A stretch of 64,000 bases of DNA from Metallyticus violacea (taxonomy: Eukaryota; Arthropoda; Insecta; Mantodea; Metallyticidae): assembly GCA_030762175.1 (NCBI GenBank), contig CM060833.1:168778501-168842500 (forward strand), read 5' to 3'. The first letter of the stretch is position 1. Each line of letters begins with the position of its first letter. Shown here piece after piece: positions 3,137 through 61,279 of this stretch. Made by a program: the position numbers and the translations under genes. The notes beneath the pieces are model-generated. The model was not told where the DNA came from and searched no databases. It saw only the letters and a list, made by a program, of their open reading frames with translations.

Positions 3137-3462
3137 ATATTACCATATCTTATTTGGATTTAAAGTAAAACACTAAAAATCATGTCGTCACATTAAAAAT
3201 CTCTTTAAGTTTCATAAACACACTTATAAAAGTAATTTTGGTACATGTTTCGTGAGGTACATTCCTCACATTGTCAACCAAAACGACGACTGAGTCACCT
3301 CACAAAACATGTACCAAAATTACTTTTATAAGTGTGTTTGTGAAACTTAAAAGAGATTTTTAATGTGACGACATGATTTTTAGTGTTTTACTTTAAATCC
3401 AAATAAGATTAACAAAAGTTTCACTGTGTGGATTCCGACATCCCGCAAACATATTACCATAT
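3137..3462. mobile_element. Hammerhead fold-back element FB1 with 12-bp target duplication
   Basis: The unit is 302 bp (3149-3450), flanked by exact 12-bp direct repeats ATATTACCATAT (3137-3148 and 3451-3462). Inverted arms of about 115 bp (3149-3268 and 3297-3412) are followed on the right by TTTCACTGTGTGGATTCC, a variant of the 3' motif shared by many units in this window. The left arm, on the minus strand, carries a ribozyme-like core. In the right arm the core is broken (CCTCACAAAAC). Confidence 0.8.
3240..3278 (-). ncRNA. Hammerhead-ribozyme motif in FB1
   Basis: Reading the minus strand: TTGACAA, T, stem II GTGAGG/CCTCAC with a hexaloop, GAAAC, AT, then GUA as cleavage triplet. GAAAC and stem II are perfect. 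The CUGANGA box is altered (UUGACAA), so activity is uncertain. Confidence 0.55.
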
Positions 3463-3603
3463 GTTTAAGATATATGGTATAAAATATTTTATAAAAATAT
3501 TATCTGCCAAAATGAACTACAAGTGCTCAAAAGTAAAACATGAATTAAGGAGTACCCATAATGTAATCTTCAGCAGATGTGAAATCCACGCTCTTGTAAC
3601 ATG

Positions 3604-3883
3604 CAATGCTAATAAGATCATTGTGTGATTGAGTCAAATTAACACTCTTTTGCTCCATTTATTGTTTAAATATGTAGGATTGGCTTCAAGAACTCATTTG
3701 CATTCTCAGCCCCTAGTCCACTCAACAAGGGGCTGACGATGCAAATGAAGGGTTCGTGAAACCGATCCTACATATTTCAAGTGGAGCAAAAGTGTTAGTT
3801 TGACTCAATCACACAATGATCTTAATATATGATCAGCTTCACTGTGCAATGTTCCAATTAACAATTTTAGTTGCAATGTTATG
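3604..3883 (+). mobile_element. Hammerhead fold-back element FB2
   Basis: Inverted arms run from about 3612 to 3705 and from about 3737 to 3828, followed by GCTTCACTGTGCAATGTTCC and AATTAACAATTTTAGTTG. That end is nearly identical to the end of the 50854-50974 insertion. The flanking direct repeat is weak (GCAATGCTAATA against GCAATGTTATGT, 8 of 12). A hammerhead core lies in the right arm; the left arm has CTGAGAA and GAAGC in its place. Confidence 0.7.
3733..3770 (+). ncRNA. Hammerhead-ribozyme motif in FB2
   Basis: CTGACGA (a perfect CUGANGA), a weakly paired stem II, GAAAC (3758-3762), CG, then AUC as cleavage triplet, followed by CTACATAT. AUC is less usual than GUC. Confidence 0.5.
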
Positions 3884-4389
3884 TCGCAAGGCCTGCATTA
3901 TGAATATCTGGCCAGTGGTGGAATTTAAGCATACAGTCTACAATGAGTTCTGATAAAAAGCCAAATCCATTATTATGTTATTGGCAAAAAAAACTAATGA
4001 AAAGAACATTTCTGCATCAATATTTTTATTAGAAAAATATGATTTGATAAGGAATTAAGGAAATATGCAGGATATTGGAATAAATTTTAAGGCACAAATG
4101 GAATATGTTCCTTGCAAAAGAAACAATAGGAGGGCATGTGGATTTGACGATATTACAACTTGAAGCTAAGAGCGGAGATGTCATTTGTATCTTGTGCATC
4201 TATTCAACATAACTCTAAATAATTCTACAAAATCCTTACAAAAGACTGGAAGTTTGCTATGGTGATGCCTATTCATAAGGGCAGCATTAAAATAATTTTA
4301 AAAAAATACAGGCCGGCTAGCCTTGCACTTGTCATATGCAAAGTTATGGAACATTTGACAGGTCAATACATTCATAGTACAAATAGATG

Positions 4390-5400
4390 GAGAAGTTTGG
4401 ATTAATACAGTAGTAATTGATATTTTGAAGGCTTTTGATTTTGTACTGCATAACTTATTAGCAGATAAACTGAGTGGACTAGAAATAGATAAAGATGTAC
4501 TTTGGATAACAATTTTTTTAGAAGAACAAACCTGGACAGTTAGGGTAGATCAGGAAATGTCAGTTATTGGGAATGCAACATCAGGAGTTCTACAATTATT
4601 ATACCATTCTTGGGCTGCTATTGTTTATTATTTATATTAATGATCTTTGCTTAAAAACCAAGTCAAAAGTAAGATTATTTGTATGTGACCGAATTGTTTA
4701 TAAAAAATTAACAATAATTACAAATATATTTTGTTAATTGATTAAAGCCAGGAAAAAAGTAGGCGGTTCTAATAATAAGGAATAACATTTTGTAAAAACT
4801 GAAAAGAAAATTAATTATAAATCTCATGAGATATAAATTTCCCAAGAAAACTGCTGCAGGTTTTTGGCAGTTTATTTCTTACATGGGATGAACAAATTTA
4901 TTAGTATTATATTGAAAGAATGCATTTCATAATGAAAACACTAAAAAATGCCAGTCCAAAATCAAAGGAAATAACTTATTTATTATTAGTTTGGCTGTTA
5001 CTGGAGTATGGAGTAGCTTGTTGGGATTCACAGAGAATATATCAAATAAATATCCCCAAAAAATATCTAGTATAGAGCAGCAAAATTTGTAAAAGGTGCA
5101 AAAGAATATGAAAATCATAACAGAGAGATGCAAAAAGCAAAGATAACGTCATTATACAAAGCATAAAAGCCATAAAACAATTGCATGGACGAATATCAAA
5201 ACTAGATTAGAAAAACATACTATGATAGGAACAATCATAGTTTCAAAATCAAATGTAGACAACAGAGAACAAATGTGGGCAATTCTCTTTTATCAATAAA
5301 ACCATAAAAGAATGGAATGATTTGCCTGCAGTTTCAGGGTGGTTGTTCTCTGACAAGATTTAAAAATGTATATATAATAAAATTTCATTGATATAAGTAA
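4390..5400 (+). pseudogene. Non-LTR retrotransposon RT fragment (Jockey/CR1-like)
   Basis: At 4425-4640 the frame reads MKAFDFVLHNLLADKL, ...GNATSGVLQ, then after a shift a segment ending in IYINDLC. These are RT motifs KAFDxVxHxxL, SGVPQGSVLGPLLFxIYINDL and a lost FADD. At 5180-5360 the typical C-terminal tail is readable (NNHSFKIKCRQQRTNVG, EWNDLPA-like). Multiple stops show long inactivity. Confidence 0.7.
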
Positions 5401-6069
5401 ATATGTAAAGTATATCAATTTAAGTTTTGCTTGAAATGTTGCTTTAACTCATTGGATTGATTTTGGGTAGCTAAACCTGTCTTGTAAACATAGTATATGT
5501 CTACTTTCATATATCAGTCACCAAGCTCAGTTCCACTCACAGCAATAATGTACATACATACAAATGACATTAATGATAAAGAAAAGAAAATATAGTATCG
5601 TTATTAACCTTCTACAGGATCATCCTTTAAGCACAAAAAAGCTATTTCTTCTTTTTAGATATAAACAATTGGATATTTGTAGCAGAAGAGCAGTACTTGA
5701 TATTTTCAAAAAAGATTAACCAGTACATTTGAACAGAAGCTCTGCTGTGTGCCCAGATCATTTTCTGGACCTTAGAAACAAAAATTTAAGAATGAGGTAA
5801 GGTATTTTAGTAGACATTTTATTAATATTGATACCCATTGAACAAACATAAAAAATTTTAAAAGGCTGGGCCTAATAATGGTAAAGGTATCTTTTCCTAT
5901 AATGCATATACCTACTTGAATCGCAGACCATTTAGCAATAAGCAATTCATGTACTGTCATTAACTGTGGTATTGCCCACATACTCTCCAGGTATCACATT
6001 TTTTCCTACACAAACTGCAACTTATATTGTCTTCTTGCTCTATCTCTTATGTCTCTTAGGCATCCATTT
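5401..6069. other. No gene seen
   Basis: This is AT-rich sequence with short open frames on the minus strand but no recognisable protein. Confidence 0.45.
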
Positions 6070-6364
6070 TTTTTATGATTTATTTATGGTCATTCTTTAA
6101 CATCTAAGGTCATCAGCATTCTGTTCAATTCAGGGCATGAAATAACTGTCTAATTGTGCTCAGAGGCCTGTTCTTTCAGGCTTGAGTTTTTTTTTTTTTG
6201 CCATAAATGTACGACATGGGACCCACAGCTTTACTTCTCTTCCAAAAGAAGCCATACTTAGGATTTTTATGCCTGATAAATATCCATCAATCCTGGTCAG
6301 ATTTGAACCCTTGGTCTTAGGTTTAGAAGGCAAAGTTTGGTTACCACTACACCACCAGGACCAA
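6070..6364 (-). repeat. SINE family A copy 1
   Basis: This is a diverged reverse-complement copy of the tRNA-derived SINE best preserved at 38686-38986. The tRNA-like head is at 6285-6364 (GTCCTGGTGGTGTAGTGGTA region) and the 3' tail at the low-coordinate end. Confidence 0.85.
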
Positions 6365-7031
6365 CATGTTCAGTTGCAACTGATATCATCAACAATTTAA
6401 TTTTGTAGAGAAGTTATAAAATGTTGAGTTATATTATTTTGCCTAGTTCTATAACCTCAATTTTGCCTCAAAGAAAACTAGTCTCAGAAAAAGTACAAAG
6501 AAGGGGAAGAGAAAAAAAAAGTGGGAGGAACCAAACCCAGAAGAAGCAATTAGTGATGAAGCTGAAGTTGGGAACAGTGGTACTCCAAAGATGATAAAAT
6601 GTAAACTTTGTTTAAAAATTATAATGAAGTACAGACTGTAATAGAAAACTGTGAGAGTTAATCATATATTGAGAAATTACTGTGCAGTTCAAAAAATAAA
6701 TATGAGGTGCAAGAGTATAGAAAACAGTGTTCTTAACAATGTAGCAGAAAACTTGATTAATCTACAGAGCACTCAAGGCAGAAATGTTCAGGGGCTCTTG
6801 TTTTTCACTTTTGTTCACCTTATGAACATAAGATTTTTGCAAACATATTTTTATTTCTTTCAAGTCAATTTAAACACACTCTTTTTGACTTCACTTACTG
6901 GAGATTTATTCAGTACATATTTCATCAGTCTCATCCACATCCTTATATGTTAAACAGCTGTTGCATCATTCCCAACCAAATGATCCTTTGGTCATTCAAC
7001 AGCTGAGAATGTGAACCAGGATAAACGAAAC

Positions 7032-7321
7032 ATGTCTTGAGTATTAAAACAATTAAAATCTTCCGGGCTGTTTTGCCGTGGTCCATGGTTTACGTTGCTA
7101 CCATAGCTTTCACCAACTACTCCGGTTGAGAGGAATCAATACTGCCGTCGTGCTAAGAGTTAGGTGTTATTCTTCGTCCACTGAAGATGCCAACCGGAGT
7201 AGTTGGTGAAAGCTATGGTAGCAACGTAAACCATGGACCACGGCAAAACAGCCCGGAAGATTTTAATTGTTTTAATAACAACACCGGCCGTGAAAGCCTA
7301 AGAAGTATTATGTCTTGAGTA
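7032..7321 (+). mobile_element. Hammerhead fold-back element FB3, nested, with exact 12-bp target duplication
   Basis: The insertion 7044-7309 (266 bp) is flanked by exact 12-bp repeats ATGTCTTGAGTA (7032-7043, 7310-7321). Nearly perfect 85-bp arms lie at 7043-7127 and 7192-7276. The right end carries CACCGGCCGTGAAAGCCTAA, shared in part with the unit at 48486-48713. It is inserted inside another element of the same class. Confidence 0.85.
7181..7222 (+). ncRNA. Hammerhead-ribozyme motif in FB3
   Basis: CTGAAGA, T, stem II GCCAAC/GTTGGT (six pairs including one G-U), GAAA, then GCTATGGTAGC, which can itself form a short stem. The usual NUH triplet position is not clear, so the cleavage site is uncertain. 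Confidence 0.5.
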
Positions 7322-7541
7322 AATCTCCAGTAAGTGAAGCCATAAAGAATGTGATTAATAATTCAACTCAGAAGAGATTATTATTACATGTTTCATGGTT
7401 TCAGATTACAAATTTAATTAGTAGTGACATTTTTAGTTACCTACACCTTGGTTATTGAGAAAATGGCTCCAAAATGTGGAGGTAAAGCCTGATTTAACTA
7501 ACAAAGTTTTGATTTGTTACAAATTAAGTTTTTTTTTTTTT

Positions 7542-8982: not shown

Positions 8983-9540
8983 TTTTGTGTTGGAACTAAT
9001 ACAGTGAAGCAACTAACATATTCTTCATTAACTGGTAAGTTGATCTGATGCTCTCATGCATCATTGAATTATACAGAATATGTTTCACAGGCTATTGCTC
9101 GCATCATCAGCTTTGAGTAGACTGCTGGATTTGTTGTAGCTCTTGTGAACATTTTATGAACTTTTGAATTAATTTGTCTTCCAATGGAATCTCGATTCAT
9201 AAACTTATCTTCATATTTTTTCATAAAAATGGTTTCCCATATTCAAAGCTCCAAAGGTCAATTTATACATTTCAATAATTTGATTTCCATAGCTATATCA
9301 TGTTTATCTCTCTAAAAGTGATGTGCAACTGCTGATTTATCTATCTGATTGTACCTGATATTTCTCCACTGTTCTTTGAGCCCAATTTCTGTGCTTCTTT
9401 TTGTTTTGCCAAGATATACTTTGTTGCACTTCGAGCAACTGATTTTATAGGTTCCTGGTTTCTTCTCATCAGTGATTCTACCATTATCACCACAGTTCAG
9501 CAGATTATTTAGGCTGAATTTTCACTGGGAACAAAGTAAT
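8983..9540 (-). pseudogene. Penelope-like element remnant (endonuclease, minus strand) with hammerhead
   Basis: The minus strand reads a GIY-YIG-like segment (GTYKISCSKCNKVYLGKTKR) at about 9380-9470, followed by SAVAHHF and KHDIAMEIKLLK. A ribozyme motif is at 9081-9110 and the terminal motif (GCTTCACTGTATTAGTTCC) at 8983-9010. Its plus-strand counterpart at 9860-10720 encodes the matching tail, so the pair forms a large inverted structure. Confidence 0.78.
9081..9110 (-). ncRNA. Hammerhead-ribozyme motif
   Basis: Minus strand: CTGATGA (perfect), T, stem II GCGAGCAATAGCCTGT with imperfect pairing, GAAAC, AT, AUU triplet. Stem II is weak. Confidence 0.45.
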
Positions 9541-9859
9541 ACCGAACCCTAAGTATTTTCTGGAATGCAAACTCCCAGCATCCCTTTGAAAATGGTTGCA
9601 ATCTGTGAAGTTAAGCAACAAGGAGATTGATGAATACATCCAACTAACCGAATTCAGTCAGAATTTCTTTAGGTTAAATGGTGAATTTCATAAACAAAAG
9701 CAGGTTTAGCTATGGGAAGAGCATTATTGCCTTTTCTGGCTGATTTATATATACGTAGATTAGAAATGTGCATCACAAACTCATTCCCATACATTTTTAC
9801 AGTCTGGCATGATATGTGGATGATATTTTGTGGGGGTTAATAAGAAATAATTGGATGAT

Positions 9860-10720
9860 GCTTTGAAATTACTAAATCTACAAGATATAGAAATTAAATT
9901 CACATCTGAAACAGAACAAGACAACATGATTCCTTTCCTGGACTTAAAGATCATAAGAAGAGGCAATAACTTGAAATTTGGAATATACAGTAAAGGATAC
10001 ACAGACTGAAAATTACATAAAGGCAAGTGGCTTCAATTCTACACCACACAAACATGCAGTCCTCAACAGCTTAGCACAAGGACTCCCTAACATATGCATG
10101 AATGAGTAGCAAAGAGTACTCACACATAATACAAATGACAAAAACGAATGGTATGATCAAGAAATTTCAACATGAGAAGAGGGCTAAAACAGGTTACAAC
10201 ATTTATGGCACCCCCCCCCAAAAAAAAAAAACTATCATTCACAGCATATTCACATCATTCTTGGGCCAAAAAATCTGCTCAACTCCAGTGATGATAGAAT
10301 ATCAACTGCTTGGAGTGCAACAAAGTATATATTGGCAAAATAAAACAATCATTTAGATAAGTCAGTGGTTGCACATCACTTTTGGAGAGATAAACATGAT
10401 AGAATAATGGAAATCAAATTACTGAAATTCATAGATAGACATTTGGAGCTGGGAATATTGGTAAAAAATTTGAAAAAACAAAATAATGAAGATGAGGTTA
10501 TGAACTTTGAGATCCCAATGGAAGACAAATTAATCCAAAAGGTCATAAAATGTTCATGAGAACTACAACAAATCCATTCAACCATCAACATTATCCAGCA
10601 GTCTACTCACAGCTGATGAATCAGGCAACGGCCTGTGAAACGTGTTTTATATAATTCAATAGTAAGTGGAAAATAAAGAGTATCAGATTGACTCACCAGT
10701 TAAGATTATATTTGCTTACA
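9860..10720 (+). pseudogene. Penelope-like element remnant: RT thumb region and endonuclease
   Basis: The plus strand reads FTSETEQDNMIPFLDLKIIR and LKFGIYSKGYTD, the PLE RT segment after the YVDD box (xPFLDLxIxR, xxIYRKPTHTD). Around 10300-10550 it reads VQQSIYWQNK and VAHHFWRDKHDRIMEIKLLK from the nuclease. A hammerhead motif ends the copy at 10613. Several stops and an A-rich slip at 10222 are present. Confidence 0.8.
10613..10650 (+). ncRNA. Hammerhead-ribozyme motif at the end of the 9860-10720 PLE
   Basis: CTGATGA (10613-10619), AT, stem II CAGGC/GCCTG with a small loop, T, GAAAC (10637-10641), GT, GUU triplet with predicted cleavage after 10646. It is followed by TAGTAAGTGG. All core boxes are intact except two unpaired bases before stem II. 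Confidence 0.65.
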
Positions 10721-15325: not shown

Positions 15326-18300
15326 CTGCAACATTCCAACATTTATACTACAACCCTCTCCACATGCAAAAGATAATTTAAAGAAAATATAAATATTTTC
15401 ACTTTAGGTCAAAGTTTAAGTTTACACATTCCTAGAAAATACTATATTTACTTGCATAATAGACCTCCCTTTGACTTTTCTAGAGTGAAGAAAATAAAAC
15501 ATAAAATTCTGCATATTAGAATCCAAAATAATAGACAAACTTTTATTTAACAATATTTCACAAAAATGCCACTTACAACAATGCAAAAGAAATACTGCAC
15601 TTCATTTTATTTTATTTTAAATAGTGTTTAATACCCTTTATAACTACTGAGGCATCACAGATGGTAGACAGTGATGGTATACAAAATGAAATGAGAAATT
15701 CGGAAAGGATTTTTTTAAAGGATGTGAGCATTCTTTACTTAAGTTTAAGGTACTCTTCCTTTATTTGCCATTTATGAGGCCTGAGGAAATCCTGGAAAAA
15801 ACCTCAGGGAATAAGGTCCTAACCGCAATAGAATCTCAGACTCATGAGTCCACGTCTTAATGAAGTCAGTTACCTGTGGCGATTTGCACTTCACTGGTGG
15901 CTACTCTTTGTTAGCCTACTATTAGTGTGAGTGGCAAAAGCAATAGAAAAGCTTATGTGATGCCAATACAAGGATTGTTTAAGAAGTTTGTAGCCTAACA
16001 CAGATTTACCATACCAGTCAATCCCATGGATTTTGCTCATCATCCTTTTGTAAGAATTTGTGTTATTTTCTATTCAGTAATTTCTGGATGGAGGAGCATT
16101 CAGAGAGCTGGGTGAGGTAATTTTTAAAGATGGGCATATTTAAACTTCAAGCACACATTAATTGTTTTGTGAAAAAAGGGCTCCAACTGAAATAAAAAAT
16201 TATGCGCATTACTTTAAAAGAATCTGCTCCATTTTTAATGGTAAATGGGCTTCATCATTCAGACATAGCTGGAAAAGCCTTGAAGATGACTTCTGCATTG
16301 GATGGCTGTTCATGGCTGCAAGTAAATAACAGACAAAATCCACAATATAGTGATGCAAAATAAGAGAGTGAAAATCTGCAAGATTAATTTGGTTATGGGT
16401 ATTTCAACAAAATGTATATAGTACATCTTAATATATGTCAAAAGTCTGTACAAGATGGATGATGAACATATTGAATGCAGAAAAAACTAATGTTTATGGC
16501 CAAACATTTAAGCAGTGTTCACATTTTAAGAATCCTGTCAATTTTTCCAGATTATTTGTCACATTTGTTAAAATCTGATTCAATATCACATTCTAAGGTG
16601 TAAGAGGAGTGAATGCAATGGCAACACAAAAACTTTTCTCCTTCACAGAAAGCCAAGACTATTTCATCTGCTGGCAAACTTATGGTATCATATTCTGGGA
16701 TATAAGGGTATAATTGTTAGTCTATCTTACAAAGGGTCAGATAATCAACATAGAAGATATACCACTACTTCAGATAATGGATGAAAAATTTGCAAAAAAG
16801 ATCTGGGATAGATAATAAGTGCTGCTTCACCAGGACAATGCCCCAGGTTGCTGGTCTGCTATTGCACTTGCTAAAATATATAACTTGTAGTTGTTGCCAC
16901 ACACTCTTTATTTAACAGATGTGCCTCCACTGAGCTTTAATCTTTTTATGAAATTAAGATACGCCTTAGATGGAACAAATTTACTTGATGAAGTAACTGT
17001 GGCAGCAGAACCCAATGAACCATTTTACAAAAATGGTATTAGTGTACTATAGCATCTCTGAACAAAGTATATTAATGTTAGAGGAGTTTATGTTAATAAA
17101 CAAAAGTAGTTCCAAAACTTTAAACATTTTATTCATATGCAAGGCTACAAAGTTTCCAAACATCTCCTTCAATAACAAGTATGAAAACAGCGATTGGATA
17201 AATTAATAAAAGCAGAAATGTTTTTAGATTGTAAATGTCTTCAATTCATATGAAATATGGTTATTGCATCAAGGTATACGTTTATAAATTCATTGCTAAC
17301 AACTCAAGATGATGCAATGGTAACACATTATGACCATACGGTGTTTGAGGCAAATTACTGTACTAAAACACTAAGCAAAAAATGCTTAAAAATTTTTCTA
17401 ATAAAAGTGTATTTTCTTTAATCCAGCTTCATTTGTAAGTTTTAATTTTTAATATCAATAATACGGGTGAGCAAACTTCTACTTCATTCCATTTCACACA
17501 TGGCAAACTGGCATTGCTATTTTTTTGGCAGGTGGCATGGCACTTAAGCAAATATTTGGTGGCAAAATCAGCAGAGCAGTCAATTAACAATCGCTCATCC
17601 TATATAACCACTATGAGAGTTAATTAAGAGCTAATGAGTGTGCCTTTTTAACATTAATTAAATTAAGCAATCTACTTTCTTCAAAAATTTGCACCAATCT
17701 TGAAAATATAAGGGTTGTTTCATATTAAAGAAAATTAGTTAAGTCTTGCAACATAATTTTTCTATATGGTTCTCTGGAATTTCAATGTAATTGTCCTGAT
17801 ATTTCTCCAGGTCCATAATTTCCTTATGGAAGGGGGCTTCTGTCCTCTTGTGCAACCTCTTTATTTGAGTTAATTTTTTTCCAGCCAGGAAAATTCTGAG
17901 TTTAGAACTTCTTTTTGGCTATTCCTGGATATTTTTCCATAATAACCATCTTCAGACTCTCCAAAAGTGATGCATAGTATTCTATGGTAATGGTTTTCTC
18001 CTTCTTCAAAAAGTTAATCAAGAGAATTCGTTTTTCATTCCAAAAAACTAATGCCATCACCTTTTCATTTTCAATATATAGTAATGAATTCATAGCCAAA
18101 AAACTTCATAAAAAATTGTTGGATTTTTCTTAAAAATTTCCAAACAGTTGAGCAATGTTTGCATATGATTTTGCTTTTATAAGAGTGAGCAGACACAGCA
18201 CCCATCTTGCTCAAGAGTTATGCAAAATAAAATGAATTTAAATATTGTACTTATGAAGCTGTTGACAATGGAGTGGTAATATATCCCAAACTTAGGTATT

Positions 18301-21300
18301 CATTTTTTTTACACTAAACTCCATTTACTTACATAAAAGTAACACTCGAAATTTCGAGTAACGGCGGTTCGGTGAGCAACTGAAGATGGGAGAGATTCTC
18401 CAGAAACACGTCTTACTTTTATGTAAGTAAATGGAATTTATTGTAAAAAAATGAATACCTAAGTTTAGGATAAAATGAACTTGTTCAGTTGAGATGCCTG
18501 CACACTTTCACCCCTGTCAGCCAGAACAATATCATGGACTTCATCTGTGATTTCTGACCTCACAGCTGATTTGGAGCTCTAGGAGATAGTATCTCTTCGA
18601 TATTTGTTCTGTCTAGCATGAAGTCATTAACCCAAAGTCAAAAGGTTCCATAGGAAGGGCCATGTTTCACCCAATGTAGGTGAAATCTCTCATGAATTTC
18701 ATTTGCTGTTTTCCCTTCCAGAAAAAAGAATTGAATCACATAAAAAGTTCAGTCTTAACCATTTTTCACCATAACTTGAAACCGCCACAGGTGGCTGAGG
18801 TTGTTAAAGCACAGACTCATGAGCGGAAGGTCTGGGGTTCAATTCTCAGTCAGGACCGTCTCCCTGACTGAGATTTTTTCCAGGCTTTCCTCAGTCCTCT
18901 TAAATGGCAAATACTGGCAAGATTCCCCAAACTAAGGCCTGGAATGCTTTCTTAAAAAATAAAAAAAAATCCTTTCCTAGTTTATGCTTTCATCTCATGC
19001 ATTACCAGTGTCCATCGCCTGTGATGCCTCAGTAGTTAAAATGGGCATTAAACACTATATTAAAAAATAAAACAAACACACATGACATGCTTAAGTTAAA
19101 ACAAATGCCAAACAATAAATTAACATCACATAGAACATTTATACATATGATCACATATACAGATATTGCTGTTGTCCTCTATTAATATGCAAACCAAGTT
19201 ACTTATCAAACCAACCTCATATTCAGGAAAAAAAATACATCAATGCCCACTTCCTTATTCTTTTTAGCATCTTGAAACACCATCTTGGATGCAAACAATA
19301 CCTTCAAATCAAATTCCAAATTTTTTATTTCGCACAGCTGCTCCAAATAATCCCTCCATTAACCAGGTTTGATAGGTAATCCTTCTCTCCTGGATCTTGT
19401 CTAGTTTCTAACATTATTCCACACTCCCTTCAATATGATATTAACACAAATTTCTGCAGTGCTTTTTCTTCCTTATGTCTCTTCATTATCCAGTGGCAAC
19501 CTATACATCATTCTCAATTCCAAAATTATTGTTCTTTATGTCCTGCCTTTTCTCTATATTATTACTTGAGCTTTTAGCATTAACCCCTACAAATTTAATG
19601 CCCTTTCATCTCCATTTAATACAGTAAAAAAACTTATTCATATATACACGTCATGCTTGATTCGAGAAAGCAGGCAGGAGGAAGATGTTAGAGCACCAAG
19701 TAAACAGCAGCATTCTAGATTTATAATATCCTGAGTATTCTATTCATAAACTTTCATTAATCTATGGCATGCACAGAATCATTTTATTTCACTTACCTAT
19801 TACAATTGATGGTCAAAGTGGTGTATTTCAGCATTCATAACCTATTTTGATGAAATTTGAATTAACACGAGAAAGTTCTTTTGTGTTCCTTCTAATTTCT
19901 GCTCTTATATTGTCTTTCAGTTTTTCTACAGTGTGTGAGTTATTTCTATAAACTCTATTTTTAGAGTTCCTTACAAATAATAATCACATGAGATAAAATC
20001 TGGAAAATGTGCAGACCATAATCCTTTGGAAATAATTCTGTCTTTAAAAACTTCCCTTATAGCCACCAAAGAATTACACGCAGTATGGACTGTGGCAAAA
20101 TCTTGTTAATAATATGCATATTGTCTCTCATGATCAGTTAATTGTTTCACTTCTGTGCTCTTTAATATATCTTGAGCAATTTTAACTGATAAAGAATAAT
20201 TTGAATCAAATGTATTCACTACATTCCTAACTGTTTATAAATATAACCACCATGTTTGAACTCAATTCCGAGAACTCCTTAATATCCATCTTCATACAGT
20301 GAGGGAAAGGCTATGACTAGATAAGCTGGGGATTCATCAATGTGACGTGACCTATTGATTGTGTTGCAAAGTTTCAAGACTGACTTAATAGCACATGTTA
20401 TTCAGAAATATCATATTGGTAAATTATATTTGAAAAGATAAAATAAAAATATATTTATAAAATATACATGTAAAACAAGCATATATGGGGGTCATAATTT
20501 GCAAATTTCTGAAATATTATACTTATTAACAAAATATGCATATATTCAACATAAAATATTGTTTAAATTGTTGGAAATTTAGTAATTAAATCATATACCA
20601 AGTGAGCATACTTTTTGACAGCAGAGAAGAAATATGCATTTGCATTTAAACCCTGTCCCTACTCATCACCAAATTCATAAAATGTACAGAGTGACATCTG
20701 AATACACACAGAGAAGCCAATAGTGGAATCATGTTAGTGATGAAGGCAACAGCCTTTGAAATGTGTCCAAATGGAACAAACATAGTGAAGTTTTAAGGAT
20801 TTTCTTATAAAAATTGCATAAACAACAAATAATAATTCTTTCCTTATTCTGGACTAATGCTTCTTATGCCAATTTCTCAAGCTTTTGTAGTACAATATAT
20901 CATGTTACTTCAATCTGTGAATCCTATATTGTTCCCTACATCATGAGGTCTTCTTGCAAGTTCCCATTCTTAGCATTAAAATCTAGTAGCAGTAATTCTA
21001 TCAAAGGAACCTCTTGCTTAATCTCTTCCATCCCAAATCCTTCATGAAGGAGATCCTGCTCATGAAAGTGGGAATTTCTAGTGATAAAAATTATTTCTAG
21101 ACATAATGCAATCTTTTTCCATACAAGTCACATAATCCCATTTATCCTAGATTTCCTCTCTTTAGCCATATTTATCAATTCATTACTAATTAGCAGCCTT
21201 AATCATCTTGATATTCTTTTTTTCCTCATTAGCTTCATACTCTTTTCCCCAGTGAATTCTTAGCCTCCATTTTTAAACTCTCACCATCCTTTAACCATAT

Positions 21301-24300: not shown

Positions 24301-27300
24301 ACAGGCCAAGTAAAGTTGATACTGTAAACAACTTCTTAAAAATCTGCTAGATGACCAAATCTGGGAAAAGCATTGTGACATGATGAAAAATGGCTCTTGT
24401 CCCATAATTATAAAAAGGGAAGACAACGAGTACTCCAACAGTAAAAACCTCTATCAGTGGTTTGTCAAAGTCAGTTGGGCAAAAAATGATGCTCTGTATT
24501 TGTACTTAACTTAGGTTTACATATTTAGATGTTTTTGTTTCCTGGGATCATTTCAGTGGAAACTCAATTAGAACTGTTCTGATTCAGACCTAAAAGGAAT
24601 ACACAGTTAAGTTGACAATAACATTGTCAGATTTTATCAAGCCCTTAATTAAAAAATATACCCACAATTTCACAAATTTGCTGTTAAATCCAGAGCCTGT
24701 TCGGAAGCACCTAATATGTGAACAATTATTTTCAATGCTGCTTGAGAGCTAGGCTGAATGATAATCGCTTCAGAACAGTGTTAAGACTTGCTTCTGCAGT
24801 TAATATTTCCCCAGATATAACAAAATATTGGAAAAACATACTTTAGGATCACAAGTAATACAATGTGTGCAATGAATGTAGGCAATAGTAGAATTTTTTT
24901 TTAATATTGATGAAGTTAAAGCATTCTTATTTTTATAATAGTGTCACATTATTTTGATTCCTTTATTGTATGCCAAAGTTAATGCACAAGGATATTTGAA
25001 TCTTTATAGTTTTCATATATTATGTTACATTTATTTATGTTGTACATTTGTAGCAATATGAACTATTTGATTGTATTGCTTTCCAATTATTGTCATTTAA
25101 TTGTGTTATTAATGTTTCCAGCACAATTGTATCATCACATTATTTTTGTATTCACTAATGGATACACTATTTAAAAAAATAACAAAGAGGAAAGACTTGA
25201 TATCAAATCAAATCTTGATTCATTAGACAAAAATTAGATGCAACAGACTTCATCATTTATAGTAATATTTGCAACAATATATAATAAAATAGTCTGCAGT
25301 ATTAGATAAAATATTAATTATAATAATATGGTAAAATGTTAAACATAGTGCAATAACTCATTATGTACAAAATCCATATAAAAGCCAACACATATAACAG
25401 AAGATACTAGATTCAGCATTCTATATTGTCAAATTTTCTTTAAGTTCATTAATATTATAAAAAATCTTGTTAGCAAATTGTACTTTAAGGTAATTTATAA
25501 AATGGTGCATTTCACGATTTTTAATTACCAATGGCAGCTTATTAAACAGCTTAATTACAATATGTTTATAGCAATTTAACAAATTATTATTGAGGAAATC
25601 ACTCAATTTGTTCCATTTACTTGGACATGTTTCAAAGGCTGTTGCCTTCATCTTCAGCATGATTCCATTGTCTGCTTTCCAGTGTGGTATTAAGATGTCA
25701 TTCTGGGAAGCAGACAGTGGAATCATGCTGAAGATGAAGGCAACAGCCTTTGAAACATGTGCAAGTAAGTGGAACAAAATTAGTGAAATTTCAGTGATTT
25801 CTTCAATAATAATTTGTTATATTATACTATATTTCACTATGAAAATTCCTGCAATTCAGAACTACTCATAAAATGTTTATAGCTGTTTAGTGACAGAGTG
25901 AATCTGGCATAAGGAACATCAAAATAATTTACATATCTAGTACTATGAGTATATATCAGGTTGCATGTAGCAAAATACAGCACTTTTCTTTTATATATGG
26001 TAAACAGGATAAATATATAATCCAGGTAAAGATAAGAATGCCTGAACCAAAAATATTGTACTGGATTACACTATGGTAACTTATCATTTCATGTAACTTG
26101 AAAGCCAAAAAAATATGTACCACAATAAACACAAAGGAAAACTTACTATTTGGTGACTGTATTAAGTTGAGTGAATTCAAAAGCTTCCATACAAGATATG
26201 GTCCAATGAACATTATACCCATGAATAGCATCACTGCCCAAGAGGTTTGGGGATTCTTAGTTTCTATCTTTGCTGAATGGCCTGTTGTTGCTGCTGCTGC
26301 CTCTTGCCAAAACTTTTCACGTTGAGGATTTTCAGTGCTGAGTCCTTTAAATAAAGCATGTTCCAATAAATACATCATGCTACTTTATAGATTTTACAAT
26401 CTGTACAGCAATACTTAACTTTCAGAACATAATATTTCTCCTGAAACATTCTCAAATTTAATGATTATTTTTGCAATTTACTTTCGCTTCAGTGAATATT
26501 TCTGAATTTTATTTCAATTTGTGCATGGAGCTCAGTTTGCATATATTAAAAAAAGTATAAGATTAAAGGAGATGAGATTGTTGTTAAGTAAAAACTACTC
26601 TTTTACTAATTTATGGTAAATTAAACAATATTATTAAAATTTGATATATGACAGAGAGATATTTTTGGCCTGTGCCAATAGCTGAATGCAAGCTATGTGG
26701 GGGCCAAGAGACACCAGTTGCTGGCTCCATTGATGGGCACATTTTTTCTCACATATCTTTGATCAATAATAGCAAGCGTGCAATTTCATGATGAATTCAA
26801 TTTGCATTATAGATTAGGCATGCTAATTGGAACTTGTACAGTGAAGCCAATCATATAATGGAAAGGATAATATGATTGAATCAAACTAAACACTTTTCTT
26901 GCTTCACTTGCTTGTCTATAAATGTAGAACAGGTTTCACGAACCTTCATTCGCATCATCAGCTAGAAAGTCGACTGCTGGATACTTTGATATGCTATGGG
27001 AATGTGTATTCCTCTCTAGAGGAGGTGTCATGAACTTAAATTTTGTGTTTTCATCCCTGGAAGTGTTGAAGTTCATTAAACTGTCTTTGTATTTGTATAT
27101 GTACATTTTTTCCCAAGTTGCTAATTTTGTAGGTCCTTGTGCTGAATTCAATAATTTTGCTTTATTCATATGTCATGTTTTTTTTGTTCAGAAATGATAT
27201 GCTACTGCTGATTTCTGCATTTGTTTGTATTTTATGTTCCTGAAATGTTCTTTTAACCGTGTGTCTATGATTCTCTTTATATTTCCAATGTAGTAGATTT

Positions 27301-48473: not shown

Positions 48474-48725
48474 AACTGTGTGATACTTATAACTAGAAGT
48501 TTCTTCCGGGCTTGGAAGCCGTGCTCTGTTGGAGCTAAGGAGTCCAAACTTGGAGTCCCCAACTGCAAAGGACATCTTCAGTGGCGCAATCTGAGTCTTC
48601 TAGGAGAAGGTTTAGGCAAGACTGAATCGCCAGCTGAAGTGTTTCTTTCAAGTCCGGAAGAAACTTCTAGTTGTAAGTCTGACTCTGGCCATGAAAGCTT
48701 CCAACTACTCACAACCTCGTGATAT
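48474..48725. mobile_element. Fold-back element FB13 (FB3-related, minus-strand hammerhead-like)
   Basis: Perfect terminal inverted repeats CTAGAAGTTTCTTCCGG (48493-48509 and 48654-48670). The G+C-rich interior has CACTGAAGATGTCC on the minus strand, a CTGAAGA box with the start of a stem II. The right flank GGCCATGAAAGCTT matches the end of FB3. A weak direct repeat (AACTGTGTGATA/AACCTCGTGATA, 9 of 12) flanks it. The 80-codon plus-strand frame across it is a by-product. Confidence 0.6.
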
Positions 48726-49599: not shown

Positions 49600-51680
49600 A
49601 TTTGAAATCCAAAACATATATATTAAAGAAAATAAATGAAACAAGATTACTTTTTACAGAAATAATTAACAAGCAATGAAAAAACTTAAAAATTCATTTT
49701 TGTCTGTTATCCTATAGACAAATCTACTTAGAATAACAAAGTTGGCAGTGAATTAAATTAATTTTAATGTAGCTTGATAACGTGTTTGTAGTATTCACTA
49801 GCTTTAGTAATTTAACATTTCCTCATATCTTTTTCCATTTCCATTTTTGGATAACTGTAAACCCATTGAAACTCCATAATGCTATTTGCTGCCTAACCAC
49901 TTCTAAAATTTTTTAAACATTTCTATTATAGCATATAGAAATTCAGGAATAACTAACTATTGCTTTTTGAATTAACAAAAAAGTGCATTTGAATTATGCA
50001 AATAAAAGTTTCAACATTTTGATTTAAATAGGAACTTTTAACATCTGTTTCAGTAAGAATTTCAAGAGGATAAGTTTGTTCCAATTATTCATGTTTGAAT
50101 TAAATGTGATACTGCAATAATTTACTGTGTGATCTTTTTAATTATTGTGGTATCACATTTAATTATTTAACTTAATTTTCTTATATTTTTTTAAGTTTCA
50201 TAACACTTTCCCAAGATTTATTATATTTTTATTTTATAGTAATCTCTGTATACACCAAAATATTATGAAAAATCTATTAATGCAACAAATTTGAATTCAG
50301 GAATAAGCACTCTTTGAATAATGTAAATAAAAGATTCAAAATTAAAAAAGATTTTTTAAGATTGATGACAATAAACATATACATATTGTTAAAGAAAGTA
50401 AAACCAAGATTAATTTTTATAGAAATAATTAACATGCATTGAAACATGTTAAAAACTGTCATATTTTGTGTTGTGCTATGTGAAAGAGAAAAATCCACTT
50501 ACAATAACAAATTTGGCAGTAATTAAATTATTTTTAGTGTAGCTTTATAATGTGTTGGCAGTATTCCACAATTTTAGTGATATTAACATTTTCCTCATAC
50601 CCTTTTCTATTTCTGTCTTTGGATAACTGTAAACCCATTGAAACTGAGTTATTATAATTGCTGTTTAACCAATGCTAAAAATTCTTGGAAATTTTGTATT
50701 AAAACACATTGGAATTCAGAAGTAGCTACTGTTCTTTGAATAAACAAAATTCAATCTTAGAATTATGCAAATAAAAAGCTAAAACATTTTGAATTAAATA
50801 GGATTTTTAACATTGGTTTAAATAGAAATTTCAAGGTAATAAGAATTATTCATATATTGAGATGATTGTGAGATTGAGTCGAACCAACTCTCTTTTGGTT
50901 AGTTCAACTCAAATCACACAATCTTAATATATGATTAACTTCACTGTGCAATGTTCCAATTAACAATTTAGTTGAGAATTATTCATGTTTGAATTAAAAA
51001 GATAGTATTGCTGCAATATTTGATTTTACTGCAGTATCACATTTAAATATTTAACTCATTTTCTTATTACATTTTTAAGTTTTATAACATTTTTATACAA
51101 AATTTGATATATTTTTTTATTTAGATAGTAATCTGTATATACGCAAGAATATTTTGAAAAAATATATTAAAGCAACAAATTGGAATTCAGACAAAAGCAT
51201 TGTTTTTTAATTATACAAATTAAAAAACCATTGAGTGAAATAGTTTCTAACATTGGTTTCAATAAACAGATATTGTTAAAGAAATAAAACAAAGTTTTAC
51301 TTTTTACAGGAATAATTAACATGCATTGAAAAATGTTAAAAACTGGCATATTTTGTGCGTTGTCCTATAGTGAATGACAAAAATCCACTTGCATAACAAA
51401 GTTGGCAGTAAATTACTTTTAATGTAGCTCTGTAATTTGTTAGTAGTATCCCATAGTTTGAGATTATACATTTTTTTCTGATACCTTTTCTGTAATGTCT
51501 TTGGACAACTGTAAACCCATTGAAATTGCATTTTATTTCTATCTTAACCACTGCTAAAAATTCTTGGAAATTTCTATTAAATGGAATTCAGGAATAACTA
51601 CTGCTTTTTGAATAAACAAAATTCTGCTTTTGAATTATGCAAATAAAAGGTTAAACATTTTGAATTAAATGAAAGCTCTG
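49600..51680. repeat. Three tandem ~0.8-kb repeat units
   Basis: The marker AACAAAGTTGGCAG starts at 49734, 50516 (AACAAATTTGGCAG) and 51395, that is spacings of 782 and 879 bp. Each unit has GGATAACTGTAAACCCATTG or its variant, and TTGAATTATGCAAATAAAAG. The extra length of the second spacing is explained by a 121-bp insertion plus duplicated target at 50842-50986. Divergence between units is clear, so the triplication is old. Confidence 0.8.
50842..50986 (+). mobile_element. Minimal fold-back unit FB9 with exact 12-bp target duplication
   Basis: An insertion of 121 bp (50854-50974) lies between exact repeats AGAATTATTCAT (50842-50853, 50975-50986). The sister tandem units have a single AATTATTCAT here, a natural empty site. 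The unit has a short hairpin (GATTGTGAGATTGAGTCGAA and complement) and the 3' end CTTCACTGTGCAATGTTCC, AATTAACAATTTAGTTG. It lacks a ribozyme core. Confidence 0.88.
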
Positions 51681-51870: not shown

Positions 51871-52082
51871 AATTATAAAATATTAGGCTTTCACATAAAA
51901 ACTATCCCACTTGTAGGGGAAAGAATGGAGAATTCTGTTACAGCAGAAGGGATTAAAAAAAACATGTGTGAGATAGTTTTTATGTAAAAGCTCAGTATAA
52001 ACTAGTCTTATCATTTAAGGAGCTTCACTGTGTTAGTTCCAAATAGAATTTTTATAATTCAATAATTATAAAAATTCTATTC
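51871..52082 (+). mobile_element. Fold-back unit FB10
   Basis: Inverted segments CACATAAAAACTATC and GATAGTTTTTATGTAAA enclose a degraded core (AAAAACATGTGTGAG). The right end has GAGCTTCACTGTGTTAGTTCC. A candidate direct repeat AATTATAAAATA/AATTATAAAAAT (10 of 12) is weak in AT-rich DNA. A separate 18-bp palindrome lies at 52043-52082. Confidence 0.55.
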
Positions 52083-52637: not shown

Positions 52638-52833
52638 ACATTGCATATTTAAATGTAAATTGGAACTTAACACAGTGAAGCCAATCATATTAATGGATAT
52701 CATTGTATGATTCAGTTAAACTACACACTCTTAAAGCTTCACTTACTTTTCATAAATGTATGTAAGTAAGTGAAGCTTTAAGAGTGTGTAGTTCAACTGA
52801 ATCATACAATGATATCCATTAACATTGCACATT
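52638..52833 (-). mobile_element. Fold-back unit FB11 with near-perfect 59-bp hairpin and 12-bp target duplication
   Basis: Arms 52690-52748 and 52764-52822 differ at one position around a 15-bp loop. The left end contains the 3' motif on the minus strand (GGCTTCACTGTGTTAAGTTCC). ACATTGCATATT (52638-52649) and ACATTGCACATT (52822-52833) flank the 172-bp unit (11 of 12). The loop side carries AAGTAAGTGAAGC, but no CUGANGA/GAAAC core remains. Confidence 0.82.
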
Positions 52834-53489: not shown

Positions 53490-54150
53490 TCCATTTACAA
53501 GTCTGCCTGAAACAAAATAGCAAATTTTTTGTATTTTATACTTTAAAAATTGTCGAGAATGCAATACTAAATTTTTTAAAAACAGTGCTTTTAATCTTAG
53601 TACTGAGCACTTTTAAAATTAATTTTAAATATTTAATTTTGCCTCTTTTATCATTAAATACTCTGAGGCATGTTAGCAAGGAAGAAAATTATCTTTGGAT
53701 TTTTCCTTCATATAAAATTTATTTGGTGTTCCAGATAAAAATATTTCTGTATTAAAAGAGTAAAAATTTACTTAATTGTATTTCACAAAAATGTTATTTG
53801 TTAAACATCTATTTTGCTAAGTAAATATGAATGTTACTTTGACAGATTTTTAGATTTTACTGGGAAGTTACTATGTAACTAGAATAATTTGTAATATGTG
53901 CTGATTTGTACCATGTTCTATGAACAGTACAAGTTTAAAGCGAAGAACAAATGTAATTAAATTAATACTTATTTGTAAGTAATAGAATCTTTCTGCATGG
54001 TTATTTTAATGAACTTTTTTTGGGCTTTTAAATTAGCAACATATATTGCCAAAACTTATCTCTGCCTGACATTTTATTTCACGAGTAGTAAAGCATTTCA
54101 CAATAGTAAAGCAAAAATCTTTCAAAGTCTAAACATTTAACACTATCAAG
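53490..54150. other. No gene seen
   Basis: This is AT-rich sequence without a recognisable feature. Confidence 0.4.
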
Positions 54151-54362
54151 TAAATATCTCCTACATTAATGTGTTCAAGTTGTTAACACTATCTCCACTT
54201 TTTAAAACTTAGGACTAGTTTCGGGAGAGGTCCCTCCCATCATCGGCTGCTGTTGACGGAGTCAATTATGGGAGGGACCTCTCCAGAAACTAGTCCCAAG
54301 TTTTAAAAAAGTAAGTGGAGTTAGTGTTAACAACTTGAACACATTAATGTAGGATATATTAC
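54147..54362. mobile_element. Hammerhead fold-back element FB12
   Basis: Inverted arms lie at about 54161-54240 and 54268-54352, with a 27-bp centre. The left arm, minus strand, has a full ribozyme core. The right arm begins exactly after the core (ATGGGAGGGACC) and so lacks CUGANGA. Flanking direct repeats were not identified. Confidence 0.75.
54212..54246 (-). ncRNA. Hammerhead-ribozyme motif in FB12
   Basis: Minus strand: CCGATGA (one change from CUGANGA), T, stem II GGGAG/CTCCC with a loop, GAAAC, TA, GUC triplet, then CTAAG. Stem II is strong. The U4 to C change in the core may reduce activity. Confidence 0.6.
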
Positions 54363-54369
54363 CACTACA

Positions 54370-55250
54370 TTGTATACAGCTTTGTAAGTACAATTTTACT
54401 TAACTATTAAGTAAATTTATACTTCAGGAATTATTTTTATATATTTAAAATATAATTTTATACAAAATTGCATTGCATTTCATCAAGTTATTTACTGCCC
54501 TTTTTCCCAGCTTTATTTAAATATTTATACAACAATTGCCATTTATTTAGAAAATATATATTTGTTCGAAGGATACTCTTTGACAAATGGGGGAGGGGAG
54601 AAAAAGAAAAGAATAGAAGTCGTCTTCTGAAAACAAAATTCTTCTAAGTCCTACTCGAGACAGTTGCTTCACAAGGTATCCAGCAAAACTGTGTAGCAAC
54701 TGAAGTATTTATGTAACATGGCATGCACTAAAGAATAACTCTGGTTTTTTTTTTTCCTTCCCCCCGTATTAGCTCTGTGGCAGTGTGCAATAATGCTATG
54801 GTTTAAAGCACAGATTCCCCTCCTAACAAGAAACACTTTTTTGTAATAAACCTTTGTAATATATATGGCAAATTAGTTTTGTGGTATTGTTTCCCATACA
54901 CAGCAAGCGTCAACATTTAACATATTATACATATATTTTCTTCAGTATTTGTTCTAACTAAATGCAATATTCTGCACATGCAAGAAGGACAAAAATGGTT
55001 TATGGGTACAAATTCAAGAAACCTGGAATGTCTTAGCCTCTCATCGAACAGTACTGATGTGTGTTTATTTCTATGCACTTCCACTTTAGAAGATTTAAGG
55101 TTTTTGTTCTGTGTTTATTTAGTTTATTTGTAAAGAATGCTATGTTTGTGATTAAGTTTTTGTATGTGCATAGGTGATGCCATAAAACTCGAATAATGCA
55201 TTAAAATATAATATATTAAGCAACATGATGTTCTATATATATAAAGCCAA
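54370..55250. other. No gene seen
   Basis: No coding frame or named repeat was seen. Confidence 0.4.
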
Positions 55251-56642: not shown

Positions 56643-56764
56643 AAGTTTTTTTAAAACCAATTTTTTTAGCACACTTATCAAGATTCTTAAAAGCTGAAAT
56701 GAAGACTTGAAAACCCAAATAAATCAAAATTTTGTATTGTAACAGGACAAAAGCTTTATTTTGT

Positions 56765-57330: not shown

Positions 57331-57334
57331 CAAA

Positions 57335-58080: not shown

Positions 58081-58089
58081 ATCTCATCG

Positions 58090-59340: not shown

Positions 59341-59341
59341 A

Positions 59342-59902
59342 AAACTGTGTTGCAAAAGTTAAAATTATTTTAATTACTAATAGTGACACCAATAGCACGA
59401 GTCATTTTCCTTAATGTGCACATATGGACAATGTGCAAGATTACCAGAACAGAGATTTATCCAGGAAGTTGCACCATTCAAAGGTGGTGCCAAAACAGGT
59501 TTGGGATACCATTTGTTATCAAGGACATACAGACTTTTACATCTGTTTTGAAAACATGAATGGTGAAATGTATAAAACTGATACTAAGAGAAGTGGCCAC
59601 ATTCTTCCCCAGTTTATGATAGCAGTTTCTGCTGAGGACCTGAATAACCTTATAGCAAGCATGCCAAGGAGAGTAGAAGTAATCATCCAGGCAATAGGTG
59701 GCTAACACTACTAGAAAGTAAAATTAATCTTCCATTTTTCATTGCTTTTAAGAAGTTATACTTTTTGTTAAAGTCTGAAAAGTAATTTATATGAATAAAA
59801 AATAGAGATCTATTTGTATTCAAATGTTAAAGATTTAAAAATTATAACTTAAATACCTTAAAATTTCTTTATTCAATATTCCTAACTTTTGCAACACAGT
59901 TT
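59342..59902 (+). mobile_element. Tc1-like element, internally deleted, with perfect 20-bp terminal repeats
   Basis: Perfect inverted ends AAACTGTGTTGCAAAAGTTA (59342-59361, complement 59883-59902). The single frame at 59424-59705 joins a mid-transposase part (TICYQGHTDFYICFENMNGE) directly to the C-terminal part (LNNLIASMPRRVEVIIQAIGG, in parts), so the catalytic core between them is deleted. It is a non-autonomous derivative that could only move in trans. Confidence 0.82.
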
Positions 59903-60292
59903 AAAACAAGATCGGGGAATTGTTAGAAAAAATAAGGAATAAGTGGACGAGAAGTTTAAGGAAGAAGCTTGAGGACACACATATTTGTGAAAATTGTTAA
60001 TTTTAGAGGTTCAATTTAACTTGGTGGTTAAATTATTGAATAACCTTAGTTTTGGTATTGCTAAATTTTTAGGATATTTTTTAACTTGTTTTATGAATAC
60101 AGGGGTAAATAGGTAGCTTAGAAATAAGGAAATTATAAGGCAATCAAATTGGAAAAATTTGTATTTAATTTAGAATTAAAAAAGTAATATAAATTTGAAT
60201 AGTTTGGGATTTTCAGAGTGAAATATAGTATCATATAACAAATTATTTTTGAAGAAGTCACTCAAATTTCACTAGTTTTATTCCACTTACTT

Positions 60293-60328
60293 GGACATGC
60301 TTCAAAGACAAATTTCCTTCATCATCAG
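60293..60328 (-). ncRNA. Hammerhead-ribozyme motif, left arm of the 60191-61259 unit
   Basis: Minus strand: CTGATGA (perfect), T, stem II GAAGG.../...CTTT weakly paired, GAAGC instead of GAAAC, AT, GUC, then CAAGTAAGTGG. The changed GAAAC box suggests loss of activity. Confidence 0.5.
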
Positions 60329-60341
60329 CACGGTTCCACTG

Positions 60342-60830
60342 TCAGTTTTCCAGCATGATATTAAGATGTCGCTCTTTGGATTTGATCAACTTTTTTATGT
60401 TGCTGCTGTTTGGAAAATCAAAATTAACTAAATTTTCTTTGTTTTCGTTCAAAAATATATTTTCCCACACCGTTAATTTTATCGGTTTTTGAAGAGCTTT
60501 TAAGAGTTTTGGTTCATTTTGGAACTCATGGTTTTCTTGCCAGAAATGGTACACTGCTGCTGATTTTTCCGTATGTTTATATTTTACACTTCTCATGTGC
60601 TCCTTAAACCGTATGGTGATGTTCCTTTTTGTTTTACCTATATATTTATTATTGCAGTCTTTGCAATTGATTTCATAAATGCCCGATTGTTTTCCTGGCA
60701 GGATTTTGTCCTTTGTGTTGGTTTTTAGGAGGTTTTTCAAATTACATTTATTCACTGGAGACAAAATAATGTTGGCCTCTTTAAAAATCTTTTTAAATTT
60801 ATAGTGTGCCCATGGATGGAATGTAAATTT
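60342..60830 (-). pseudogene. PLE GIY-YIG endonuclease domain, longest open copy
   Basis: An open frame of 140 codons (60764-60342) reads SGIYEINCKDCNNKYIGKTK (GIY and YIG motifs, CKDC zinc-like pair), FKEHMRSVKYKHTEKSAAVY, HFWQENHEF, then WENIFLNENKENLVNFDFP. The preceding linker continues to about 60830. The nuclease domain itself has no stop, but the RT domain is absent, so it cannot be autonomous. The frame runs on into the ribozyme segment. Confidence 0.82.
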
Positions 60831-61167
60831 TTTATATATCTGCTCTCCTTTGTAACCTTTCAGTGTGGTGATTTCTTTTATTTGTTTTTGTTTTTTTGAA
60901 TCTTTCTATCTTTTTCTTGACCAGATCTGTTGTTCAGCAGTAGCATGCTATTTCTGGCAAAAAAATCACGAGTTCCAAAATGAACCAAAACTCTTAAAAG
61001 CTCTTCAAAAAGCGATAGAATTATAGGTGTGGGAAAATATATTCTTGAATGAAAACAAAGAAAATTTAGTTAATTTTGATCTTCCAAACAGCAACCTCAT
61101 CAAAAAGTTTATAAAATCCAAAGAGCGACATCTTAATACCACTCTGGTAAACTACAGTGGAACCGTG

Positions 61168-61205
61168 CCGATGAAGGAACTTTGTCTTTGAAACATGTCC
61201 AAGTA
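61168..61205 (+). ncRNA. Hammerhead-ribozyme motif, right arm of the 60191-61259 unit
   Basis: CCGATGA (U to C change), stem II region AGGAACTTTGTCTTT, GAAAC (61190-61194), AT, GUC with predicted cleavage after 61199, then CAAGTAAGTGG. This arm keeps GAAAC and GUC but has a changed core, complementary to the damage in the left arm. Confidence 0.5.
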
Positions 61206-61279
61206 AGTGGAATAAAACAAGTGAAATTTGAGTGACTTCTTCAAAAATAATTTGTTACATAAAAAAGTAATATTTGCTA

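Follow-up and report, generated by a model that had tools for sequence, protein, structure and literature searches.

Fold-back units in the window

The 64,000-nt stretch of the Metallyticus violacea genome analyzed here (GenBank assembly GCA_030762175.1, contig CM060833.1, positions 168,778,501 to 168,842,500 of the forward strand; hereafter the window) contains 21 fold-backs, that is, palindromes made of two inverted arms. Nine of them are bounded by a target-site duplication (TSD). Rather than forming a fold-back family of their own, these nine units belong to several families of Penelope-like elements (PLEs), of which they are short insertions. The sequence-only reading of this DNA had reported eight direct repeats of about 12 bp. 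All eight are in place, exact or with 11/12 matches as described, and a ninth unit that it missed has a TSD at 54142-54155/54403-54416 (13/14 identical). The nine fold-back PLE insertions are:

3137..3462, + strand (U3137), group D: TSD 3137-3148/3451-3462; palindrome 3147-3409; 41-nt tail on the right
7032..7321, + strand (U7032), group E: TSD 7032-7043/7310-7321; palindrome 7042-7277; 32-nt tail
18227..18481, - strand (U18227), group C: TSD 18227-18238/18470-18481 (11/12); 43-nt tail on the left
25561..25883, + strand (U25561), group B: TSD 25561-25572/25872-25883 (11/12); 48-nt tail
27803..28109, + strand (U27803), group A: TSD 27803-27814/28098-28109 (11/12); 42-nt tail
50842..50986, + strand (U50842), group A: 121 nt; exact 12-bp TSD; truncated before the hammerhead
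52638..52833, - strand (U52638), group A: TSD 11/12; 37-nt tail on the left
54142..54416, + strand (U54142), group C: TSD 13/14; 42-nt tail
60177..61273, - strand (U60177), group B: TSD 14/14; 42-nt tail on the left; GIY-YIG coding sequence in the tailed arm

For the window test, one TSD copy had to abut the palindrome and the other had to lie 28-55 nt outside it. A match score of at least 9 was reached by 9 of the 21 fold-backs, compared with 2 of 396 mismatched left and right flanks and 34 of 4000 random positions; the duplication pattern in the window exceeds chance. In all nine units the palindrome is in contact with one TSD copy (gap 0 to -4), and the second copy is set off by 32-49 nt without an inverse partner on the opposite side, which we refer to as the tail. 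The remaining 12 fold-backs scored below 9. Some of these are older units of the same groups and at least one (38710-39819) is something else.

The end sequences sort the nine units into about five groups (A-E, labels of this analysis), rather than into the single family originally proposed. A hammerhead-like core had also been described as shared by the units, in varying combinations with other blocks. Among the reported units, its strict pattern is present only in U18227 and in U25561, where it occurs in both arms (25728+ and 25629-), and in the rest the core is variant, decayed or truncated.

Two of the window duplications have empty-site support. U7032 interrupts an older PLE fold-back (6870-7358) within its hammerhead region. 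When the flanks of U7032 are joined with one 12-bp copy, they align gaplessly over 54 nt (85%) to the opposite arm of the older element. The host of U50842 is a dispersed repeat with a paralogue at ~49.92-50.25 kb (~49920-50245). Across the junction, the joined flanks score 227 against this paralogue and the filled site scores 127; of the 12 target bases, 10 occur in the paralogue, in single copy.

Assignment to Penelope-like elements

Two regions of the window encode endonuclease fragments of PLEs:

60345..60905, - strand: GIY-YIG endonuclease fragment of the PLE in U60177; open frame of 187 aa; PF01541, 24.4 bits (cut-off 22.6)
213..668, + strand: GIY-YIG endonuclease fragment of another PLE copy; PF01541, 33.3 bits

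A protein search with the 187-aa frame identified two relatives (52-53%), which served only for an alignment, and a search of viral contigs for relatives identified none. Elsewhere, at locus L013, an open frame of 737 aa (1944-4157 of the locus, minus strand) combines a reverse transcriptase (RT) domain (RVT_1, 50.8 bits) with a GIY-YIG domain (30.5 bits), so that the PLE arrangement of both enzymes in one open frame is present. The resolved fold-backs also have the inverted terminal copy with a one-sided tail (61/61) and the short TSD at AT-rich targets that are typical of PLEs, and a minimal hammerhead lies at the end or start of the coding frame, as judged by its core and by stem II pairing.

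By eye, the hammerhead has a minimal form, consisting of the core, stem II, GAA-AC, two bases and GU-H. Stem II pairs at 5 or 6 of 6 positions in 61 of 74 distinct core matches from the window and 85 loci, compared with 19.7 when partners are shuffled, although many of the copies are related and the 74 matches are not independent cases. Two results argue against the hammerhead assignment. Rfam gave no match in the window at the gathering threshold, with hammerhead models unmatched at a loose threshold as well, and the minimum-energy folds of four hammerhead regions did not cleanly show a hammerhead fold.

In 6 of 8 window matches to a core pattern that does not require ATG, the last bases of the hammerhead core, immediately ahead of stem II, overlap with an ATG; the anole PLE is similar, as its frame starts there. 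Coding and ribozyme constraints may overlap at this position.

Inverted repeats, a one-sided tail, a hammerhead and a short duplication are already known PLE anatomy. The suggestion of a separate, compact and undescribed fold-back family was thus not borne out: inverted arms, one-sided tail and short duplication are published for PLEs, several PLE groups are represented, and 13 aligned units of one group have 13 non-identical junctions.

Insertions sampled across the genome

We searched the genome from which the window was taken (2.32 Gb, 310 contigs). The GIY-YIG search yielded 20704 first-look candidates. Scoring covered 150 of them and gave 145 matches. Among these scored candidates, 20 pairs of matches lay <10 kb apart, 19 head-to-head, one tail-to-tail and none in tandem. 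All but one of the 19 head-to-head pairs have a TSD, of which one copy directly adjoins the palindrome and the other lies 36-48 nt away (72 nt in L014, which was kept despite this tail-side gap). For L024 we used the second-best repeat (12 bp, abutting) instead of the best-scoring one (13 bp, 43/77 nt out). Because 18 of 19 head-to-head pairs that code for GIY-YIG show the same geometry as the window units, the PLE GIY-YIG enzyme is likely the cutter, which supports an idea put forward in the sequence-only reading.

The sole tail-to-tail pair (L009) consists of two group D copies in opposite orientation with ~1.2 kb between them, and probably represents two insertions.

Unpaired GIY-YIG copies were sampled as 12 matches in the score class of one young family (34.0-34.1 bits). 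Seven of them have the fold-back form, with a single tail each and TSDs of 11-14 bp. For family C, we searched with a 98-nt end (that of U54142) and scored 40 of 1183 first-look candidates, which gave 44 matches; 30 loci, including U54142, were cut out. An inverted arm was found within the 1.5-kb flank at 21 of these 30 loci, and a TSD abuts the arm in 16 of the 21. For family E, 40 of 2860 candidates were scored, with 56 matches. Fifteen stretches were taken, comprising the 14 listed outside the window with a nearby inverse arm and L085, and 12 of the 14 fold-backs have a TSD. On another contig, 111 nt (G000:C6:113448883-113448993) are identical to the end of U7032.

In combination, 62 insertions were resolved: 9 from the window, 18 pairs, 8 unpaired copies, 15 from family C and 12 from family E.

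Duplication size and target site

The longest exact TSD run in the 62 insertions is 12 bp in 28 cases, 13 bp in 12, 14 bp in seven, 10 bp in five, 11 bp in four, 8 bp in three, and 7, 9 and 15 bp in one each. A TSD match score of at least 10 was reached by 59 of 62 true pairs and by 8 of 3782 mismatched loci; the insertions were chosen for having a TSD, and this control addresses the match, not the share of copies with a TSD. At the 26 endonuclease (EN)-associated loci, 15 have a run of exactly 12 bp. When chance extension is allowed for, the fitted true TSD length at these loci is 12 bp in 72%, 11 bp in 20% and 10 bp in 8%. The duplication of about 12 bp that had been claimed is therefore real and most commonly 12 bp (28 of 62 in the genome-wide tabulation); its size is near-constant, not strictly so, with a range of 7-15 bp.

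The target carries mirrored half-sites, AAC^A...T^GTT, such that each primed strand reads T^GTT 5′ to 3′ across the cut. For the strand priming the tailless arm, the counts among the 62 sites are 35 for T at -1, 27 for G at +1, 41 for T at +2 and 44 for T at +3. The corresponding counts on the other primed strand are 44, 29, 43 and 47. On the two sides, T at +3 has P=5e-9 and 3.5e-11, and T at -1 has P=3e-4 and 5e-9. GTT lies directly outside the cut at 20/62 and 18/62 sites, compared with 0-2/62 at shifts of 12, 25 and 40 nt. T^GTT is a preference and not a requirement, as the full GTT is absent on a given side in most sites. The three groups with the most sites (A, 24; C, 17; E, 13) each show the motif on their own; groups B (2) and D (6) have few sites. 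Because the target is, on average, twofold symmetric and the stagger is 12 bp, the sites point to two like subunits in the cutting enzyme.

Tails, outer ends and internal junctions

Each of the 61 fold-backs has exactly one tailed end. The tail was used in finding or framing 36 of them (9 in the window, 15 in family C and 12 in family E), with the other end free to be tailed, and the 25 EN-associated fold-backs were chosen without regard to the tail. Tail length is 29-55 nt, and once 72 nt, across the window, the pairs and families C and E. Measured from the hammerhead GAAAC at 12 loci of the young family, L013 among them, the tailless end follows at 68-75 nt and the tailed end at 114-120 nt.

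We examined the joint between the arms in 24 units. Nine units have arms that overlap by 1-3 nt, and a tenth has an overlap of 8 nt. In one unit the arms abut without overlap or gap, and in 12 units filler of 2-84 nt lies between them; L020 shows a 544-nt gap in place of a clear joint. The tailless arm reaches >100 nt further in six of the 24 units (L019, L025, L027, L031, L032 and L036), and in others the tailed arm reaches further.

In 13 aligned units of family E the outer ends are common and no two centres are identical. Given these 13 non-identical junctions, most units look like separate events of the parent element. Shared descent is possible for L077/L079 and L078/L081, whose junctions lie within a few bases of each other.

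Proposed two-ended priming and its alternatives

Duplication size, geometry, fixed outer ends, variable junctions, a single tail per fold-back and the mirrored motif are all features of the sequences themselves. The explanation that we favor, and consider probable, is that each unit is one PLE insertion made by two-ended target-primed reverse transcription. The PLE enzyme, probably dimeric, would recognize two mirrored half-sites and would cut each strand at 5′-T^GTT-3′, with the cuts ~12 nt apart. Both freed 3′ ends would then prime reverse transcription of PLE RNA, one from an inner start ~70 nt past the hammerhead core, giving the tailless arm, and the other from a second start ~45 nt further downstream, giving the tailed arm. 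Both cDNAs would head for the 5′ end of the RNA, usually stopping at different points, and would be joined head to head with a few bases in common or with short filler at the joint. Filling in of the staggered cut would produce the 12-bp duplication. Published in vitro results for an anole PLE, with cuts and extension on both strands and two internal starts that match the tail, speak for this account (PMC11167929). We infer a double-strand cut, a dimer, the order of the cuts, the polarity of the overhang (3′ favored), a joining step and, perhaps, both starts on a single RNA.

A more specific version, to which we give about an even chance, is a coupled reaction. In this, a dimeric GIY-YIG/RT complex would make a 12-nt stagger at mirrored T^GTT sites and each DNA end would be assigned its own start, perhaps on one RNA, so that every fold-back receives one tailed and one tailless end.

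Divergence between arms was considered as a possible sign of two RNA sources. The TSDs of the nine window units have 5 mismatches in 112 bp compared with 7.6 expected from arm divergence, so different templates are not demanded.

Several observations weigh against two-ended priming as a general account. Some copies lack the expected structure. No TSD was found at the head-to-head pair L022, at 5 of the 21 family C fold-backs (one of the five is cut by the locus edge) or at 2 of the 14 family E fold-backs. No fold-back occurs within the stretch taken around the copy identical to the U7032 end (L085). In the unpaired sample, L029, L035 and L038 (3 of 12) have no clear structure and L033 is without this hammerhead. 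L039 has a 12-bp TSD but lacks a fold-back and is simply a truncated insertion, which indicates that two-ended priming is not obligatory. Other points concern the details of the reaction. The 1-3-nt overlaps at nine of the 24 joints are attainable by chance, and 3′ and 5′ overhangs are indistinguishable from sequence alone. The G at +1 is partly favored by the definition of the repeat as maximal, yet this definition favors C equally and the G:C counts are 27:7 and 29:6. The published in vitro assay of the anole element, where RT starts are alike on both strands, does not predict the one-tail rule. Finally, the arm ends of family A lie no more than 60 nt apart in 5 of 19 units, compared with 1.2 expected (P 0.003). 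The two syntheses are thus not fully independent, and the ends in family A are sometimes coupled, for example through a common RNA 5′ end or, in a small share of units, through snap-back.

The L039 insertion also has short repeated filler at its left (5′) junction.

Snap-back after one-ended priming, in which a single cDNA folds and copies its own strand, is the alternative that survives best, and we consider it unlikely as the general mechanism. Self-priming of this kind is proposed for Adineta PLEs in the Discussion of PMC3846280 and could account for part of the units. The near-perfect palindromes with tiny loops in L010, L017, L021 and L024 fit such a process, as do the closely spaced arm ends of family A. 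However, a full copy would place a tail on both ends or on neither, whereas every fold-back has one, and the tailless end is confined to an 8-nt zone in 12 of 12 loci. Moreover, either arm may be the longer, which indicates that neither arm is generally copied from the other.

Non-autonomous fold-back DNA transposons, or elements like miniature inverted-repeat transposable elements (MITEs), that are moved by a transposase are usually recognized by their inverted repeats and by a TSD of constant size. The two family E pairs with nearly the same junction could be copies of one such fold-back. We nevertheless regard this origin as very improbable. Symmetric terminal inverted repeats that both abut the TSD were not found; instead the ends are asymmetric, with the tail on one side, the outer ends are PLE sequence beside hammerhead and coding arms, and the aligned family E units share no identical centre. 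An origin as animal retrozymes is marginally less probable still. These small non-autonomous retroelements carry type I hammerheads and move as circular RNA; passages of PMC7229834 report hammerheads in small metazoan retroelements with TSDs >4 bp, as here, but describe short tandem non-coding hammerhead repeats (~150-450 bp), whereas the hammerheads of Metallyticus lie in the inverted arms of a coding PLE, and the arms of its longer members run into GIY-YIG and RT coding sequence.

Other features of the window

Three older-looking units, whose direct repeats are short or decayed (3610-3827, 9028-10703 and 48485-48678), were distinguished from the nine insertions:

3610..3871, + strand: probably an older group A fold-back, with a tail; direct repeat of only 7 bp
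9028..10703, - strand: PLE fold-back of larger size; hammerhead cores at 9082- and 10613+; tail-like stretch on the left (8991); decayed repeat (by eye)
48485..48720 (right limit approximate), + strand: probably an older group E fold-back, with a tail; decayed 9/12 repeat (by eye)

Group A tail-like sequence also occurs at 52022-52081, with no recognized arm, and is followed by a 40-bp palindrome. The inverted pair at 38710-39819 has a tRNA-like left outer end (Rfam tRNA, 28.5 bits at 38689-38760; cut-off 29), and is probably two opposite copies of a tRNA-derived short interspersed nuclear element, not a PLE. An open frame at 29423-29830 (- strand) had no Pfam match. By eye it resembles the N-terminal part of peroxin-13, and we presume that it may be a host gene.

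At a loose threshold, the Rfam matches were mainly microRNA hairpin models, located at palindromes. PLE fold-backs at 25630-25755, 52692-52820 and 7054-7265 matched several microRNA precursor models below the cut-off. Hairpins of PLEs are thus a possible source of false microRNA annotation.

Relation to known elements and implications

EN-containing Penelope elements of Adineta vaga are one close counterpart. Passages of the report on them (PMC3846280) describe head-to-head inverted pseudo-LTRs (long terminal repeats), an optional 31-bp tail on one inverted end and short TSDs at AT-rich targets; the TSDs given there are 8, 9 or 10 bp, or none. The window units share the inverted pseudo-LTRs, the one-sided tail, the short TSD and the AT-rich targets. 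In contrast, those passages contain no fixed 12 bp, mirrored target motif or one-tail rule, and the word hammerhead is absent from the main text of PMC3846280.

The Poseidon element of Anolis (PAc) is a second close counterpart. In vitro, both strands are cut and extended, the RT starts are the same for both strands, and the cut preference is 5′-ATT-3′; the tail lies between two internal RT starts and the frame begins at hammerhead stem II, and the complete integration product is not shown (PMC11167929). PAc and the elements reported here both have RT and GIY-YIG in one frame that starts at hammerhead stem II, a tail delimited by two internal RT starts, and AT-rich cutting. They differ in the 5′-ATT-3′ preference of PAc, and no TSD size is given in the main text of PMC11167929. 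According to this 2024 in vitro study, further steps of PLE integration are still to be validated (PMC11167929).

In our search of the literature, which was not exhaustive and does not prove absence from print, none of three features turned up: a PLE duplication near-fixed at 12 bp, the mirrored T^GTT half-sites and a strict one-tail rule. In the twin priming of LINE-1 elements, both ends of the target break prime reverse transcription and inverted copies result, with the second primer at varied positions on the RNA. Unlike this, both arms of the units described here start at two fixed sites.

A genome rich in PLE copies is a natural record of the integration reaction. Together, the one-tail rule, the near-fixed spacing and the mirrored half-sites sharply and testably constrain both the nuclease and the way in which RNA starts are shared between two DNA ends. 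If a coupled two-ended reaction does occur, a single mechanism would account for three PLE features, namely the inverted structure, the tail and the TSD.

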